64,000 bases of DNA from Actinomycetota bacterium (GTDB lineage: Bacteria; Actinomycetota; Thermoleophilia; Miltoncostaeales; Miltoncostaeaceae). Position numbers and translations under genes: made by a program. Under the pieces are notes generated by a model. That model worked only from the letters and a program-made list of their open reading frames with translations. It did no database searches and was not told the origin of the DNA. The DNA is taken from NCBI GenBank assembly GCA_963169235.1, contig CAUJCX010000020.1, forward strand, positions 186,001 through 250,000, in the 5' to 3' direction. Positions 6,133 through 34,419 of this stretch are shown here, in pieces (position 1 is the stretch's first letter; each line of letters opens with the position of its first letter).

Positions 6133-6951
6133 GTGGACTACGAGGACATCCTCTGGCAGCAGGACGGAGCCCGGGTCACCATCACGATGAACCGCCCCGA
6201 GCGGCTGAACGCCCTGCGCGGGCAGACGATCATCGAGATGGTCGACGCGTTCGAGCGCGCTGCCGACGATGAAACCGTGGGAGTGATCGTGCTCACCGGC
6301 GCGGGCGACCGTGCGTTCTGCGCCGGCGGTGACGTGCAGGACCCGTCGAACGGCATGGCGCAGAAGCGGCGCGGTCACCACCTGGTGGACCGCCTGGGCG
6401 CCGCCATGCGCAACAACGGCAAGCCGATCATCGCCAAGGTCAAGGGCTACTGCATCGGCGCGGGCAACGAGCTCAACATGATCTGTGACCTGACGATCGC
6501 GGCGGAGTCGTCGCGGTTCGGCCAGGCGGGGCCGAAGATCGGCACGGCCCCGCTGTGGTGGGGGTGCCAGTACATGCCCATGGTCATCGGCGAGAAGAAG
6601 GCCCGCGAGGTGTTGTTCCTGGTGCGCCAGTACTCGGCGCAGGAGGCCCTCGGAATGGGCCTCGTCAACAAGGTCGTGCCCGACGACCGCCTCGACGCCG
6701 AGGTGGACGAGTGGTGCAACGACATCCTGTCGCGCTCGCCGCAGGGGCTGCGCCTGGCCAAGATCGCCCTCAACGCGTCGTCCGACATGCTGTACCCGTC
6801 GATGCAGCACGGGTACGAGCTGATGGCCCTCAACCACGTGTACGGCGTCGAGCCCCGCGAGGGCATCGCGTCGTTCCAAGAGAAGCGGTCGGCCGACTGG
6901 CGCCCGTTCCGCGGCGGAGAGGGGCCCGAGCCGGCCCCGCGGGGGTCGTGA
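6133..6951 (+). CDS. Enoyl-CoA hydratase/isomerase (crotonase) family, BadI/MenB-like
   Basis: 272 residues, GTG start two bases after the nitroreductase stop. Crotonase oxyanion-hole segments are clear: AFCAGGDV at about 61-68 and GYCIGAGNEL at about 105-114. The block CDLTIAAESSRFGQAGPKIG ending in GLVNKVVP resembles ring-cleaving crotonases such as BadI (2-ketocyclohexanecarboxyl-CoA hydrolase) and DHNA-CoA synthase MenB more than beta-oxidation hydratases. No other menaquinone genes are near, so a ring-opening hydrolase for an alicyclic or aromatic acyl-CoA is the better guess. The last base of its stop is shared with the ligase start. Confidence 0.8.
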   Translation: MDYEDILWQQDGARVTITMNRPERLNALRGQTIIEMVDAFERAADDETVGVIVLTGAGDRAFCAGGDVQDPSNGMAQKRRGHHLVDRLGAAMRNNGKPIIAKVKGYCIGAGNELNMICDLTIAAESSRFGQAGPKIGTAPLWWGCQYMPMVIGEKKAREVLFLVRQYSAQEALGMGLVNKVVPDDRLDAEVDEWCNDILSRSPQGLRLAKIALNASSDMLYPSMQHGYELMALNHVYGVEPREGIASFQEKRSADWRPFRGGEGPEPAPRGS

Positions 6952-8618
6952 TGCACGCGACGGAGTGGACCGACTGGTACGCGCGGGAGGACCCCACCAC
7001 GTGGGTGCTCGCCGAGATCCTGCGGCGCCGGGCCGCCGAGCACCCGGACCGCCCGTACAGCCGGTTCGGCAGCGGCGACTGGGTGACGTACGGCGACACC
7101 CACGCCCAGGCCAACCGCGTGGCCAACGGCCTCGTCGCCCGCGGCGTGGGTCCCGGCGCGTCGGTCAGCGTGATGCTGCCGAACTGCGCCGAGTACCTGC
7201 CGGTGTGGTTCGGAATCCTCACCGCGGGTGCCGTGATGAGCCCCATCAACACCGCGTACAAGGGCGACTTCCTCAGCTGGACCATCCAGCTGGTGGAGGC
7301 GCGGGTGCTGATCGTCAGCGACCTCTACCTCGACCGCCTGGATCTGGTGGCGGCCGACCTGCCCCTGCTGGAGCGCGTGATCGTGGTGCCCTCCGGGGGC
7401 GAGGCCACCGGCCCGGACCCGCGCGTGGCGTGGGAGACGTACGACGCGCTGTGCGCCGGGCCCGACACCGACCCGGACGGCATCACGTACGCGTGGACGG
7501 ACGACGCTCGCATCATGTTCACGTCGGGCACCACGGGCCGCTCGAAGGGCGTCATCAAGCAGAATGCGGCCGACTACTTCTCGGCCCGCAGCGCCCTCGA
7601 GTCGGCCATGGTGCGCCGGGGCATCGGCCTGGACGGCCTGTCGGACGAGGTCTACTTCACGTGCCTGCCGCTGTTCCACTCCAACGCGCAGGTGCTGTGC
7701 GCGTACCCGGCCCTCATCGCCGGCGCCCGGGTGGCGGTCACCGAGCGGTTCTCGGGCACGCGCTTCTGGGACCAGGTGATCGACGCGGGCGCCACCACGT
7801 TCAACGGCATCGGGGCGATGCTGTACTTCCTGTGGAACCAGCCGCCGTCCGAGCGCGATCGCGCCCACCGCGTGCACACCGTGGCGGCGGCCCCCGCCCC
7901 GAAGGACATCTACCACCAGTTCGAGGAGCGGTTCGGCGTCACGCTGACCGAGGGCTACGGCCTCACCGAGACCGGCGTGTGCACCACCATGGACCCCACG
8001 CAGCCGGTGCGGCTGGGTTCGTGCGGGCGGGCCAACCCGGGCTATGAGGTCAGCATCGTGGAGCCCGGCACCGACCTGCCGCTGCCGGCCGGGACCCCCG
8101 GCGAGATCGTGGTCGACCAGAAGATGCCCAACATCATCATGCGGGCGTACTTCGGCATGCCCCAGAAGACCGCGGAGGACTTCCGCAACCTCAAGCTCCA
8201 CACCGGCGACCTGGGGCGCATGGATGAGGACGGGTACGTCTACTTCATGGACCGGGTGAAGGACTACATCCGCCGCCGTGGCGAGAACGTGTCGTCGATG
8301 GAGGTGGAGCGCCAGGTGGAGGACCACCCGGCGGTCAAGCGGGCGGCGGCGATCGGCGTGAAGGCGGGCGAGGGGGCCTCGTCGGAGGACGAGATCCTGA
8401 TCGTGTGCGTGGCCGAGGGCGCCGCGCCGGATCCGGTGGAGTTCACCCACTGGATGGCCGAGCGGATGCCGTACTTCATGGTGCCGCGCTACATCCGGTT
8501 CGTGGATGCGCTGCCGATGACGCCCACGGAGCGCATCCAGAAGACGAGGCTTCGCGACGAGGGCATCACCGCGGACACGTTCGACCGGGACGCCGCGGGA
8601 ATCACGATCCGGCGGTAG
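6951..8618 (+). CDS. AMP-forming acyl-CoA ligase
   Basis: 555 residues, with an ATG overlapping the crotonase stop by one base (TGATG). Adenylate-forming motifs are in order: the P-loop FTSGTTGRSKG at about 190-200, YGLTETG near 335, and DRVKDYIRRRGENV near 434-447 with the hinge. The C-terminal catalytic lysine region (PTERIQKTRLR) is present. It activates a carboxylic acid to its CoA thioester with ATP. Overall pattern is close to CaiC/FadD3-like ligases. As the last gene of the TetR-controlled cassette it probably makes the substrate for the crotonase and nitroreductase. The true acid is not deducible. Confidence 0.88.
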   Translation: MHATEWTDWYAREDPTTWVLAEILRRRAAEHPDRPYSRFGSGDWVTYGDTHAQANRVANGLVARGVGPGASVSVMLPNCAEYLPVWFGILTAGAVMSPINTAYKGDFLSWTIQLVEARVLIVSDLYLDRLDLVAADLPLLERVIVVPSGGEATGPDPRVAWETYDALCAGPDTDPDGITYAWTDDARIMFTSGTTGRSKGVIKQNAADYFSARSALESAMVRRGIGLDGLSDEVYFTCLPLFHSNAQVLCAYPALIAGARVAVTERFSGTRFWDQVIDAGATTFNGIGAMLYFLWNQPPSERDRAHRVHTVAAAPAPKDIYHQFEERFGVTLTEGYGLTETGVCTTMDPTQPVRLGSCGRANPGYEVSIVEPGTDLPLPAGTPGEIVVDQKMPNIIMRAYFGMPQKTAEDFRNLKLHTGDLGRMDEDGYVYFMDRVKDYIRRRGENVSSMEVERQVEDHPAVKRAAAIGVKAGEGASSEDEILIVCVAEGAAPDPVEFTHWMAERMPYFMVPRYIRFVDALPMTPTERIQKTRLRDEGITADTFDRDAAGITIRR

Positions 8619-8769
8619 GCGCGAGCGTGCGCAGGTGGTCGCGCAGCACGGCGACGGCATCCTCAGGCGCCAGCCCGTGCAGCAGGTGCAGGGCCAGCCC
8701 GTCGAGCAGCGCGTGCAGGTGGCGCTGACGGCGGGCGTCGTCGTCTGCGGCTGGCTCGTCTGCCCGATC
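8602..8769 (-). pseudogene. Remnant of a TetR regulator (C-terminal tail only)
   Basis: Reading the minus strand gives about 55 residues typical of the last two helices of a TetR regulator (ARRQRHLHALLDGLALHLL...AVLRDHLRTL), ending in a proper stop that overlaps the acyl-CoA ligase stop. No helix-turn-helix or ligand domain precedes it: similarity ends where the secreted-protein gene ends (8768). It looks like a regulator whose 5' portion was lost when that gene arrived. Expression is unlikely. Confidence 0.6.
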
Positions 8770-9502
8770 AGCGCGTGATGCGCAACGCCCGGGCACCCGC
8801 CCTGGTCGTCACGCCGTAGTACGCGTCCGGGCTTGCCCCCAGCGCGCCGGCGGGGTCACCGGTCACCGTGGCGAACGGGTTGGTGACGGGGTTGGTGGCG
8901 CTCGCGTCGGCCCACGTGCACCCCGTGTACGTACCTGGCGCGAGACCGCGCAACGGCACGGTCACGGTCACGTCGTAGAACCCCGGGGGCAGGTCGGCGT
9001 ACGGCCGCACGGGTTCCCAGGGGGTGCCGCTGGACTTCAGCAGCGGGATCCGCGTCGCTGACGGCGTGGGCGGAGATGTAGGGCAGGTGGTCCCCCTCAC
9101 CAGGTATGCGCTGACCCGAGCCCCCATGGTGCGGCCCAGCAGCAGCTGACCGGGAGCACAGTTCTCCGTGCAACTCGGCAGAAAGACCTGCCCCCACACC
9201 TGGATGCGCACCGCGCGGTTGCGGGCAGGCCCCGTCACGGCACGCAGCACGGCCGACGGCAGGTTGATGTAGAGGCCTGGGTACACCGGGGCCACGTACG
9301 CTGGCCACCCGGCGAACGACGACCACGCGCGGCGCGTGCCAAGGACGCGGGGTGCCACGAGCGGCTGAAGCGTGGGAGGCGGCATGGGCGTGGCTGGGGT
9401 GCCGGTGGGAGGAGGCGTCGCCGGCGGAGCCTGGCCGACGGCCGTCGCGGCCATCGCGAAAAGGGCCAGCACGCAACTCGAACCGACTCTCAGCCTGCGC
9501 AT
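8768..9502 (-). CDS. Secreted protein, paralogue of the protein at 14535-15272
   Basis: 244 residues. The ATG at 9502 aligns with the paralogue start; an ATG at 9517 would add five residues. A signal peptide (MRRLR...ALFAMAATAVGQA) is followed by a Pro/Thr-rich linker and a roughly 200-residue domain that shares conspicuous blocks with the paralogue: GQVFLPSC, LLGRTMGARVSA, RPYADL, PGTYT.CTWADA. Five cysteines (SC..NC, TTC, GC) suggest disulfides in an exported fold. No enzymatic motif is recognised. It lies between gene fragments on both sides, suggesting that it arrived by rearrangement. Confidence 0.65.
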   Translation of the reverse strand: MRRLRVGSSCVLALFAMAATAVGQAPPATPPPTGTPATPMPPPTLQPLVAPRVLGTRRAWSSFAGWPAYVAPVYPGLYINLPSAVLRAVTGPARNRAVRIQVWGQVFLPSCTENCAPGQLLLGRTMGARVSAYLVRGTTCPTSPPTPSATRIPLLKSSGTPWEPVRPYADLPPGFYDVTVTVPLRGLAPGTYTGCTWADASATNPVTNPFATVTGDPAGALGASPDAYYGVTTRAGARALRITR

Positions 9503-30392: not shown

Positions 30393-31334
30393 GTGGCCAT
30401 CGCCGACCTCGTTCTCGGCACCATGTATTTCGGCACCGCCGTCGACGAATCCACGTCGCACGCGATCCTCGACGCATTCGCCGAGGCGGGCGGCACCACG
30501 CTCGACACGGCCAACTGCTACAGCTTCTGGCGCAGCGACACGGGCCGGGGCGGCCAGAGCGAGGCGGTCATCGGCCGCTGGCTGGCCCGCAACCCCGGCG
30601 TGCGCGAGCGGCTGGTGATCGCCACGAAGGTGGGCGTCGAGCCCGTGCCCGGCGGGCCCGAGGGCGCCGTGGAGGGCCTGGCGCCGTACGTCATCCGGCG
30701 CGAGGTCGAGCGCAGCCGCGAGCGCCTGGGCATCGACACCATCGACGTCTACTGGGCCCACGCCGACGACCGCGATACGCCGCTGGAGGACACGGTGTCG
30801 GCGCTGGGGGAGCTGGTGCGCAACGGCGCGGTGAGGCGCCTGGGGGCATCCAACTACGCCACGTGGCGGGTGGACCGCGCCCGCGCGCTGGCGAAGGCGC
30901 GTGCGGTCGAGCCGTTCACGGCCCTGCAGCTGACCGACTCGTACGTGCGCCCCCGCCCGGGCATGCCCGCCGCCACCGACCATCGTTTCGGCGCGGTCAG
31001 CGACGAGACCCGCGACTACCTGGACGCGCACCCCGACATGGAGGTGTGGGTCTACAGCCCGCTCCTGCGGGGCGCGTACGACCGCGCCGACCGTGACCTG
31101 CCCGACGGTTACGACCACCCGGGCACCACGCGGCGCCTGGATGCGCTGGCGGCGACGGCCCGGGCCGTCGGGGCGAGCGCCGGCCAGGTGGTGCTGGCGT
31201 GGCTGATGCACCCGGAGCGCCCCGTGCGGCCCATCGTGGGGGTCAGCGACGTGCGCCAGCTGCGGGACGCCCTGGAGGCCGCCGAGCTGGTGCTGGATCC
31301 CGCCGACCGCGCGCGCCTGGACGCCGCCGGCTGA
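30393..31334 (+). CDS. Aldo/keto reductase
   Basis: 313 residues from GTG 30393 with GGGGGAG just upstream. A TIM-barrel NADPH-dependent oxidoreductase: LDTANCYSFW carries the catalytic Asp and Tyr, LVIATKVG the catalytic Lys, and DVYWAHADD the His. LGASNYATWRV and the later PIVGVSDVRQL are cofactor-binding segments. Similar to oxidoreductases of the AKR11/YdhF-like group; substrate not known. The last 12 codons (31299-31336) are duplicated at 33175-33212 around a foreign-looking gene, so this 3' end looks like an integration target that was preserved intact. Confidence 0.9.
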   Translation: MAIADLVLGTMYFGTAVDESTSHAILDAFAEAGGTTLDTANCYSFWRSDTGRGGQSEAVIGRWLARNPGVRERLVIATKVGVEPVPGGPEGAVEGLAPYVIRREVERSRERLGIDTIDVYWAHADDRDTPLEDTVSALGELVRNGAVRRLGASNYATWRVDRARALAKARAVEPFTALQLTDSYVRPRPGMPAATDHRFGAVSDETRDYLDAHPDMEVWVYSPLLRGAYDRADRDLPDGYDHPGTTRRLDALAATARAVGASAGQVVLAWLMHPERPVRPIVGVSDVRQLRDALEAAELVLDPADRARLDAAG

Positions 31335-31336
31335 CG
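31299..31336 (+). repeat. Direct repeat, left copy (3' end of aldo/keto reductase gene)
   Basis: 38 bp identical to 33175-33212 except for C31310 versus T33186, a synonymous change in the reductase reading frame (CGC/CGT, both Arg). The repeat ends two bases after the reductase stop codon. Arrangement resembles an att site at a gene's 3' end. Confidence 0.85.
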
Positions 31337-31339
31337 CGA

Positions 31340-31366
31340 GCGGACGCCCGGACGAATCCCGTCCGC
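31340..31366 (+). terminator. Stem-loop after the aldo/keto reductase
   Basis: GCGGACG (31340-31346) and CGTCCGC (31360-31366) form a perfect 7-bp stem around a 13-base loop, with an alternative inner GGACG/CGTCC hairpin. It lies immediately after the left direct repeat. No U-tract; a possible terminator or recombination-related hairpin. Confidence 0.35.
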
Positions 31367-31406
31367 CCCGTGCAGAACGGCCCAGTCCTGCGCCGAGTAC
31401 GCGAAA

Positions 31407-31444
31407 GTTTATACGGTCGTGCGTCTGACCGGTCGTGTATAAAC
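31407..31444. promoter_or_regulatory. Palindromic operator/promoter of the AlbA_2-type regulator gene
   Basis: GTTTATAC (31407-31414) and GTATAAAC (31437-31444) are perfect 8-bp inverted repeats 22 bases apart. Between them GGTC/GACC are also inverted, and GGTCGTG occurs twice directly (31415, 31431). TATAAA at 31438-31443 can serve as a -10 box, which would put the start site at about 31450, exactly the ATG of the gene. A DNA-binding product could bind here and repress itself. Confidence 0.6.
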
Positions 31445-31449
31445 CACTC

Positions 31450-33159
31450 ATGCAACTCGACGAACTGCGGGGCGCGCTCAGTGCCCTTGAGCAGGGTGGA
31501 CGAGCGGGATCCCTCGAATCGGAGACGCTCGACTTCAAGCGTGATCCGCAGACGGTCGTCGACGCGCCTGGCGGTGGCAACCCTCGCTCGAAGCTCGTCG
31601 AAGAGATCGTCTCCGCGGTGGTGTGCTTCGCGAACGCGAAGGGTGGGGTGGTCGCTCTGGGCATCGACGACAAGGCCGATGGGCGCCTCGCGTTCGTCGG
31701 CACCTCGACCGACGTCGATGATCTCCGCCGCAGGATCTTCGGCAACACCCGACCGGGACTGACGGTCTCGATCGTCGAGCTGCACCATGCTGACGTTCGT
31801 CTGCTCGCGATCCTCGTTCCCGAAGGCACAGATCTGGTGACCGATTCACGAGGTCGCGCCACTCGGAGGACGGGCACCGAATGCCATCCGTTGACGGAGC
31901 CCGCGCGCCAGACGATCGTCCATGAACGCCGCAACCCGGACGTCACGGCGCGTCGCTCGGCAATGTCCCCAGACGCTGTCGAGGGTCGGGCGCTGAACGC
32001 GGCAAGGGACCTTCTTCGTCGGCGGACCGATCTTTCGTCCGAACTTGCCGCCCTCAGCGATCGAGAGCTGCTTCGCGCCCTGAACGTCATGGACCGCGAC
32101 GGGCACTTGCTCATCGCCGGCGAGATTCTCTTTTGCACGCCGCGGCACGACGTGGTGGACATCCTCGTGCGGAGCGCATCCGGTGAGGAGCCCGGCGTTG
32201 TCCGGCTGCGGGAACCGCTGGTGTCGCTGTTGCCCTCCGTGGTCGAGCGGGTGTCACGGAGTCTCTACCCCGAAACAGGACGGGCGCTGCTTGCGTCGGG
32301 TCAGGAGATCGCCCTCCCAGACTTCTCCCGCCAAGCCGTTGACGAGGCCGTGGCGAACGCGCTGATCCACCGCGAGTACGCCATTCCAGAACGCACTGTC
32401 ATCGACCACTCTCCGACGGCGTTCAGGGTGTGGTCACCTGGGGGGTTGCCGTACGGGGTCACCACGGATCGGCTGCTCAGCACCATTTCCACCCCACGCA
32501 ATCCGACCTTGATGGGTGCGATGCAGCACCTCGGCCTTGCCGAACGGGCATCGCGGGGGATCGACCGGATGTTCAAGGAGCAGCTGAGAGCGGGCCAGGC
32601 CCCGCCGGTCTTCACCGCAGGCGACTTCAGCTTCGAGGTGGCGCTGACAAGCGGCGCCCCCAATCGGGCGTTCGCGGGATACGTGGCCTCACTGCCGGCG
32701 ACCCTCCGGGACAACACCGACGCGGTGCTGGTCCTCGCCTATCTGTGCGCGCATCCGACGTTGACGCAGACCTCGGCCGGGAGCCTTCTGCAGGTCGACC
32801 CGGGCGAGGCGGCGCACAGGTTGGAAGCGTTGTGCACGGGCATCGATCCCATCGTTCAGCGCGACGGCACGCCCCGGGCGGGTTGTCGCTGGCGGCTGAC
32901 GTCGGTGACGGCCGCGGGCCTGGGCACGGCGGTCACCCACCGTGCACGATCCAGTAGCGCGCGACCACGCATTGAGGCCCACCTCAAGGAATACGGGTGG
33001 ATCACCAACCGCACCGTTCGCAACATGTTCGACGTCGACACGCAGCAGGCGCGTCAGATCCTTGGCGACCTTCGGGCGGAGGGCGTGCTCGAGAAGGACC
33101 CGACCGGCCCCCAGCGTGGCCCCGGGATCAAGTGGTTCCCCGCTCGCGTGAAGAGGTGA
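31450..33159 (+). CDS. Schlafen/AlbA_2 domain - GHKL ATPase-like transcriptional regulator
   Basis: 569 residues from ATG 31450; no ribosome site, so probably leaderless. Order: an AlbA_2 (Schlafen-type) domain at about 22-140 (ESETLDFKRD, CFANAKGGVVALGIDD), a linker, then a HATPase_c_4-like region at about 285-390 (FSRQAVDEAVANALIHREY, VWSPGGLPYGVT, STPRNPTLMGAMQHLGLAERASRGIDRM). Two winged-helix-like segments follow (LTQTSAGSLLQVD; WITNRTVRNMFDVDTQQARQIL). Such proteins are annotated as ATP-binding regulators and are frequent in mobile and defence islands. Codon use differs from neighbours, and the gene is the sole cargo between 38-bp direct repeats. Exact role unknown. Confidence 0.85.
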   Translation: MQLDELRGALSALEQGGRAGSLESETLDFKRDPQTVVDAPGGGNPRSKLVEEIVSAVVCFANAKGGVVALGIDDKADGRLAFVGTSTDVDDLRRRIFGNTRPGLTVSIVELHHADVRLLAILVPEGTDLVTDSRGRATRRTGTECHPLTEPARQTIVHERRNPDVTARRSAMSPDAVEGRALNAARDLLRRRTDLSSELAALSDRELLRALNVMDRDGHLLIAGEILFCTPRHDVVDILVRSASGEEPGVVRLREPLVSLLPSVVERVSRSLYPETGRALLASGQEIALPDFSRQAVDEAVANALIHREYAIPERTVIDHSPTAFRVWSPGGLPYGVTTDRLLSTISTPRNPTLMGAMQHLGLAERASRGIDRMFKEQLRAGQAPPVFTAGDFSFEVALTSGAPNRAFAGYVASLPATLRDNTDAVLVLAYLCAHPTLTQTSAGSLLQVDPGEAAHRLEALCTGIDPIVQRDGTPRAGCRWRLTSVTAAGLGTAVTHRARSSSARPRIEAHLKEYGWITNRTVRNMFDVDTQQARQILGDLRAEGVLEKDPTGPQRGPGIKWFPARVKR

Positions 33160-33174
33160 CCGGCTGCACGGAGC

Positions 33175-33212
33175 CCCGCCGACCGTGCGCGCCTGGACGC
33201 CGCCGGCTGACG
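33175..33212 (+). repeat. Direct repeat, right copy
   Basis: Second copy of the 38-bp repeat (37/38 identical to 31299-31336). Here it is not part of any gene; the reductase-like codons have no gene body before them. The single difference would be synonymous in the reductase frame, which suggests this copy derives from the end of a related reductase gene carried in with the insert. Confidence 0.85.
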
Positions 33213-33282
33213 GCGCCATGATCGCCTCATGCCTCCGAACTGAATCCCCTCCGCGCTGACTCGCACGCTTGAGCGCCGGGCG

Positions 33283-34419
33283 ATGGTGTGGGCTGCCCTC
33301 GTGGACGGCATCCCGCTGTACCCGTTGTACGCCCTGCTGTTCGCCGACCACGGCATGTCGGACGCCGACATCTCGGGCCTGTTCGCGCTGTGGGCCGTGG
33401 TGTCGCTGGCGGCCGAGATCCCCACCGGGGCGCTGGCCGACCACGTGTCCCGCCGCGCGCTGCTGGCGTGGTGCGGCGTGCTGCAGGCGGCGGGCTTCGC
33501 GGCATGGACCGCGTGGCCGGCGCCGGCGGGCTTCGCCCTGGGGTTCGTGTTGTGGGGGGTGGGCGGGGCGTTCTTCTCGGGCACGACGGAGGCCCTGCTG
33601 TACGACACGCTCGCGGTGGCGGGCGACACCGACGCGTACGCGCGGGTGCGGGGGCGCGTCGCGGCGGCGGGCCTGGTGGGCCAGGTGCCCGCGGGGCTGG
33701 CGGCGGCCCCGCTGTACGCGCTGGGCGGGTACGCGCTGGTGGGGTGGATGAGCGTGGCGGTGTCGCTGGGCGCCGCCGCGATGGCGTGGGGCCTGCCCGA
33801 TCTACGTCCGCGCGGCGACGACGGCGGCGACGACGAGCCGGGTTACCTCCAGGCGCTGCGCGAGGGCGTTCGCGAGGCGGTGGGCAGCGCGGCCGTGCGG
33901 GGCGCGCTGGTGGCGTCGGCGGCGCTCCTCAGCCTGGAGGCGCTGGAGGAGTACGACGTGTTGCTGGCGCGCGAGTGGGGCGTGCCGACGGGCTGGGTGC
34001 CGCTGGCCGTGGTGTGGTTGCCCCTGGCGGGCGCGCTGGGGGCCGTGGTGGCGGGGCGCCTCACGTCGGTGTCGATGACGGTGCTGGCCGGTGCCCTGGG
34101 GGCCGGTGTCGCGCTGGTGGCGGTGGCGGCCGTCGTGCGCGTGCCGTACGGGGTGCTTGCCATCGCCGCGTTCTACGGGGTGTTCCGCGCGGTGCGCGTG
34201 GTGGTCGACATGCGGCTGCAGCACCGCATTCGGGGGGCGGCCCGCGCCACGGTAACGTCGGCGGCGGAGTTCGTGGGCGGCGTCCGCGGCATCGCCGCGT
34301 TCGGGTTATGGGCCGTGTGGGGCGTGTGGGGCATCCTGGCGCTGGCGGTGGTGATCGTCGTGGCCCTTCCGGCGCTCATCCGGGTGCGGGGGGACGGCAT
34401 GCGGGGGACGTCGGGGTAG
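33283..34419 (+). CDS. Major facilitator superfamily transporter
   Basis: 378 residues with about 12 hydrophobic helices. The loop after the second helix reads EIPTGALADHVSRRALL, the MFS motif A (GxLaDrxgRR). A hydrophilic loop around residues 170-195 (PRGDDGGDDEPG) separates the two halves. The ATG at 33283 starts close to the first helix; the frame is blocked upstream by a TGA at 33241, so the N-terminus is short. Resembles drug/sugar-efflux type MFS proteins, but substrate cannot be told. Confidence 0.85.
   Translation: MVWAALVDGIPLYPLYALLFADHGMSDADISGLFALWAVVSLAAEIPTGALADHVSRRALLAWCGVLQAAGFAAWTAWPAPAGFALGFVLWGVGGAFFSGTTEALLYDTLAVAGDTDAYARVRGRVAAAGLVGQVPAGLAAAPLYALGGYALVGWMSVAVSLGAAAMAWGLPDLRPRGDDGGDDEPGYLQALREGVREAVGSAAVRGALVASAALLSLEALEEYDVLLAREWGVPTGWVPLAVVWLPLAGALGAVVAGRLTSVSMTVLAGALGAGVALVAVAAVVRVPYGVLAIAAFYGVFRAVRVVVDMRLQHRIRGAARATVTSAAEFVGGVRGIAAFGLWAVWGVWGILALAVVIVVALPALIRVRGDGMRGTSG

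Follow-up and report, generated by a model that had tools for sequence, protein, structure and literature searches.

The window analysed here, a stretch of 64,000 nucleotides from one actinobacterial contig, contains a single gene enclosed by two direct repeats at the 3' end of an intact aldo/keto reductase gene (Table 1). The left repeat consists of the last 36 bp of the reductase gene together with 2 bp beyond its stop codon (31334). Sequence comparison showed that the two repeats differ at a sole position, C/T at base 12, which falls on the third position of a reductase codon and is synonymous, and that similarity between the two flanks drops off sharply on either side of the 38 bp. When at most three mismatches were allowed, the 38-mer matched twice in the window, with no match expected by chance. 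Exactly two copies were present in the entire 2.94-Mb genome, and none was found among 298 other genomes of the class or in viral contigs.

The 1,838 bp between the repeats are made up of 113 bp of upstream sequence, one 569-aa gene, here called the cargo gene, and 15 bp. An alternative in-frame GTG lies upstream of the cargo start, at 31435. Reading-frame and Pfam analyses of the insert revealed neither a recombinase nor a transposase gene, and no fragments of any further gene were found in it. The sole gene matched SLFN_AlbA_2 and HATPase_c_4 only in Pfam, leaving the insert without the integrase of its own that an IME, ICE or prophage would have; lacking a transposase and bordered by a 38-bp direct repeat, it does not fit an insertion sequence or transposon either. 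GC3 was 0.80 in the cargo gene, compared with 0.955 in the reductase gene and 0.963 in the downstream MFS transporter gene, and in this respect the cargo gene is compositionally foreign.

These results agree with the original prediction for this locus, which had described 38-bp direct repeats with one synonymous difference, a single AlbA_2/GHKL-type gene between them, A/T-richer third codon positions in that gene and no recombinase. The prediction had also stated that the repeat runs through the stop codon. The repeat does end at the gene end, but it reaches 2 bp further than the stop codon itself.

Table 1. Features of the insert and its surroundings (positions in the window)
Feature	Position	Strand	Basis
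Target gene, aldo/keto reductase, 313 aa, intact	30393..31334	+	ORF; PF00248 E=5e-54; GC3 0.955
Left direct repeat, attL-like	31299..31336	+	37/38 identity to 33175-33212
Hairpin-forming inverted repeat GCGGACG-13-CGTCCGC, just inside the left end, 27 bp	31340..31366	+	Read from sequence
Long-gap palindrome GTTTATAC-22-GTATAAAC, directly 5' of the cargo gene, 38 bp	31407..31444	+	Probable autoregulatory operator
Cargo gene, SLFN_AlbA_2 + HATPase_c_4 (GHKL) + C-terminal helical/winged-helix region, 569 aa	31450..33159	+	
Right direct repeat, attR-like; begins 15 bp past the cargo stop codon	33175..33212	+	
Downstream host gene, MFS transporter	33283..34419	+	ORF, Pfam; directly follows the reductase in the same-genus genome

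An empty site in the same-genus genome

In G001, the only other genome of the genus that we compared, the reductase gene (68% identical) is joined directly to the MFS transporter gene, and the cargo gene is absent from the whole genome. The 60-bp host-side flanks outside the repeats matched G001 better than shuffles did (left, p 0.002; right, p 0.004), whereas the 60-bp cassette-side flanks inside the repeats gave no match to G001 above shuffles (p 0.34 and 0.82). Because the outer flanks align and the inner sequence does not, the empty site is confirmed: the locus is an insertion, and its single-copy site exists in the sister genome. The check for an empty site that had been proposed along with the prediction was thus answered in its favour, as was the target-preserving geometry, the reductase being intact and its gene end regenerated by the repeat. 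Since the reductase of this closest relative is only 68% identical, the insertion cannot be closely dated.

The cargo protein and the upstream palindrome

Pfam placed SLFN_AlbA_2 at residues 23-148 of the cargo protein (PF04326, E=2.2e-12) and HATPase_c_4 at residues 326-399 (PF13749, E=4.3e-13), both above the curated cut-offs. Across an alignment of 10 sequences, the AlbA_2 residues E23 and D74 were invariant and D28 nearly so; we take these three residues as counterparts of the acidic trio known from Schlafen RNases. The N-box residues E299 and N303 and the glycines G331 and G370 of the GHKL ATP site were invariant in the alignment as well. Judged by PF04326 and the conserved acidic motif, the cargo is a Schlafen AlbA_2 protein, and at most a predicted nuclease; by its N-box and glycine motifs, it is classified as a GHKL ATPase of the HATPase_c_4 type.

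The AlphaFold model of the cargo had a mean pLDDT of 85. Its closest solved structure was 3LMM, which is DIP2311 of Corynebacterium diphtheriae (phmmer E=2.6e-34; Foldseek E=2e-33), and weaker fold matches in Foldseek were human Schlafen N-domains and GHKL kinases. The domain order of the cargo is the same as in DIP2311 and other SLFN_AlbA_2/HATPase_c_4 proteins, but the cargo and DIP2311 are only 22-24% identical in the fold alignment; in the literature searched, we found no function for DIP2311. PADLOC gave no full-length model match to the cargo, only weak partial matches to Argonaute-associated models. Phage matches were distant (about 24-35% identical), and viral contigs contained no relatives of the cargo. 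An Rfam search over 31000-33500 returned nothing.

Taken alone, the palindrome directly 5' of the cargo gene was borderline (p about 0.04-0.06). A palindrome of the same build was found directly 5' of the gene in several relatives: its arms are 7-13 bp long with a gap of 17-25 bp, its end lies 65-97 bp ahead of the conserved ESETLDFK motif, and the arm sequences differ. It was individually significant in five relatives (L019, L023, L025, L027 and L028), weak in two (L021 and L032) and absent in others. A geometry that is kept while the arm sequence changes is expected of an autoregulatory operator, and the palindrome at 31407-31444 is probably such an operator. The cargo would most likely control its own promoter through the gapped palindrome and act as an ATP-responsive nucleic-acid-binding protein of the Schlafen AlbA_2 type.

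A second insert of the same design

A direct-repeat scan of the contig, C20, showed that another insert built in the same way lies 73 kb from the first (contig positions 143790-144355). Its repeats, 143790-143840 and 144305-144355, are identical at 48 of 51 positions. The latter copy forms the 3'-terminal 51 bp of a minus-strand glutamine synthetase gene (144303-145688), and the former lies 515 bp from the glutamine synthetase end, with one short codirectional reading frame of GC3 0.78 in between. The translation of this frame corresponds to the C-terminal region of an ATP-binding AAA/winged-helix protein of 390 aa; many plasmids carry the gene for this protein by itself. An upstream piece of the second cargo is readable in another frame, indicating that this cargo is a decayed copy.

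Each insert has a repeat that runs 1-2 bp past the target stop codon and a cargo codirectional with the target, while the distal repeat starts 15 bp (first insert) or about 35 bp (second insert) after the cargo stop codon. The two cargoes have GC3 of 0.78-0.80 compared with 0.93-0.98 in their neighbours. Downstream of the glutamine synthetase gene, G001 carries different DNA from the genome with the second insert. The recurrence of the same anatomy with a different target and a different cargo makes a one-off accident unlikely.

We then scanned 2.32 of the 2.94 Mb (79%) of this 65-contig draft genome for single-gene inserts in which one repeat includes the stop codon of a neighbour and paralogy extends no further. 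The scan covered 1,724 called genes; the two inserts alone had all of these properties, and no third clean insert was found in the scanned 79%. One candidate on the same contig, C20 141474/142550, was rejected; there a decayed paralogue has left a second copy of a membrane-protein gene end 1,076 bp upstream of it (141474-142580), which shows that look-alikes of the insert geometry exist. The other high-scoring repeat pairs inspected, including those on contigs C13 and C21, were tandem paralogues and were likewise rejected. As a separate observation, positions 17369-19773 of contig C21 hold tandem diverged paralogues of low GC3 with near-identical 160-bp blocks, suggesting recent conversion between the copies.

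Recombinases elsewhere in the genome

The recombinases found in the genome comprise two adjacent Xer-like enzymes, a large serine recombinase and a short tyrosine-recombinase domain that stands alone. An integron gene cassette would call for an attC site and an integron integrase; every PF00589 match in the genome was either Xer-like in look or a short solitary domain. None of those found lies near the insert or has the 38-mer beside its gene, and no integrase with the reductase gene end as its target was found. The solitary domain (C20 174820-175446, 42 kb from the insert) is a 208-aa catalytic domain with native codon use and no N-terminal arm domain. The serine recombinase, of about 600 aa, lies at positions 1075-2925 of contig C29, near the end of this 18.9-kb contig, and is possibly part of a separate mobile element.

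Routes by which the insert may have arrived

Integration at a gene end is usually taken as evidence that the element carries an integrase. Like the elements that target the ends of protein-coding genes, the present insert has a repeat that spans the gene end, stop codon included, and leaves its target intact. It differs from them in lacking a tyrosine recombinase of its own.

On balance, we favour a minimal integrative element that entered the reductase 3' end in an att-type reaction, with a recombinase that acted in trans or has since been lost. The element would comprise the 1,838 bp plus one repeat copy and would carry a single orphan regulator-like ATPase gene. It would have entered through a site-specific exchange of the att type inside the 38-bp repeat, bringing its own copy of the last codons of the reductase, so that the reductase would be regenerated up to its stop codon and its original end displaced 1.9 kb downstream. 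The recombinase would have come from outside the element, supplied in trans by a phage, plasmid or island that is absent from the present assembly, or would have been lost later. It is the att-type recombination, the supply in trans or loss of the recombinase and the autoregulation of the cargo that we infer here.

The ends of the repeats underlie this choice. In an element that has to carry the end of its target, selection would keep the two copies identical between the crossover and the stop codon but would not act further on. The repeats stop just after the stop codon in both inserts, which favours att-type recombination with target regeneration, while a duplication from a random staggered break would not be expected to stop there, which argues against target-site duplication. 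Given that the recombinase is missing, it was either supplied in trans or part of a larger element that has been lost, unless host recombination did the work; the compact layout, with a gene and its promoter only, tends to favour movement of the small form itself. Set against this reading are the two different targets, which would require two specificities, the failure to find an integrase for the reductase target or a genomic recombinase near the insert, and the relatives of the cargo gene, of which only 2 of 11 have a flanking repeat, both imperfect. The original prediction of site-specific integration therefore stands in part. It is supported by the insertion, the preserved target, the foreign cargo, the lack of a recombinase inside and the second example; the proposed search for the same 38-mer around different cargo genes gave no such case in 299 genomes.

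A rather unlikely route is that a larger ICE, IME or prophage at the reductase gene shrank to attL, one gene and attR. Such a loss of integration and transfer genes with retention of attL and attR is a described route and gives rise to cis-mobilizable elements, or CIMEs (PMC5704250). The insert resembles CIMEs in its att-like repeats at a gene 3' end and in the lack of integrase and transfer genes; the flanking attL and attR at a gene end have their putative counterparts in the 38-bp repeats, together with the empty site in the sister genome. The visible decay of the second cargo also fits a relic. However, the present insert is one gene only and shows no trace of a larger parent element: no other gene fragment was found, and the cargo and its promoter fill the space (113 bp before, 15 bp after). 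At the insert site we found neither a helper ICE or IME nor a parent element. Two independent relics would, moreover, each have to shrink to exactly one orphan ATPase gene.

We regard as quite unlikely a capture without any site-specific recombinase, through a long staggered break or through Campbell-type or illegitimate short-homology recombination, that duplicated 38-54 bp of the target. It would account for the absence of a recombinase inside and for two unrelated targets, and the microcin H47 genomic island of Escherichia coli is on record as excising and integrating through its repeats in the absence of each of 16 known recombinases. This island has imperfect direct repeats and no recombinase of its own and uses host-supplied, RecA-independent short-repeat recombination (PMC5426353). 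The likeness to our insert lies in the flanking direct repeats and the missing recombinase; the difference is that the island is 13 kb long and its mobility was demonstrated by experiment, whereas the insert is known from sequence alone. A random duplication would not be expected to end 1-2 bp past the stop codon in both cases. To our knowledge, no transposase makes duplications of 38-54 bp, which also counts against this route.

Chance, tandem paralogy or an assembly artefact is very improbable as an explanation, in spite of the look-alike at 141474/142550 on the same contig and the draft state of the 65-contig genome, given that there is no homology past the 38 bp, that the empty site matches on both flanks and that no chance matches are expected.

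On the best available reading, the new aspect of this locus is an integrase-less, one-gene form of gene-end integrative elements, with site-specific, gene-preserving insertion. If true, lone regulator- or defence-type genes can use gene-end integration without an integrase of their own. This significance is based on two integrase-less one-gene inserts in one genome, with the empty site confirmed for one of them. Further cases could be sought by a simple signature, in which one AT-richer gene stands between two copies of a gene 3' end and the duplication stops at the stop codon. That the two inserts belong to a whole class of recombinase-less one-gene integrative elements in this actinobacterial lineage, moved by a shared mechanism in trans, appears unlikely; such elements would place orphan ATPase/winged-helix cargo of the Schlafen-GHKL or AAA type at the 3' ends of different protein-coding genes, and each would bring the last 40-55 bases of its target, so that the target would be regenerated exactly to its stop codon.

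Relatives of the two cargoes

Repeats straddle 6 of 472 control genes, compared with the 2 of 11 relatives of the first cargo gene (p about 0.01). In one of these relatives (L027; genome G313, 6791-9033; 34% identical to the cargo), the gene is flanked by copies of the 5' end of an ABC-exporter ATPase gene, one full and the other shortened and diverged (108 bp, 2,135 bp apart). The other relative, L031, has a 29-bp repeat near an IS-like gene. Resting on two unlike cases and tiny numbers, the excess of flanking repeats in this family is suggestive only and serves as a lead. We rejected the idea that the first-cargo family is generally a self-mobile cassette; the positives are heterogeneous, and most relatives are without a flanking repeat, which indicates that the gene family is not generally carried between repeats.

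Among plasmid homologues of the second-cargo AAA-ATPase, 1 of 21 had a flanking repeat, which was not significant, and the family was rejected as a repeat-flanked cassette on plasmids. In this single case (L152; plasmid NZ_CP047900.1, 3809-5344), a full-length AAA/winged-helix gene is bracketed by two 80-bp repeats that belong to a helicase-associated-domain gene, and the second repeat overlaps the cargo stop codon; the 80-bp repeat may be an older domain repeat. On plasmids NC_018532.1 and NZ_CP014572.1, the same ATP-binding AAA gene runs into the start of an uncharacterised gene that follows it, and the two may form a two-gene unit.
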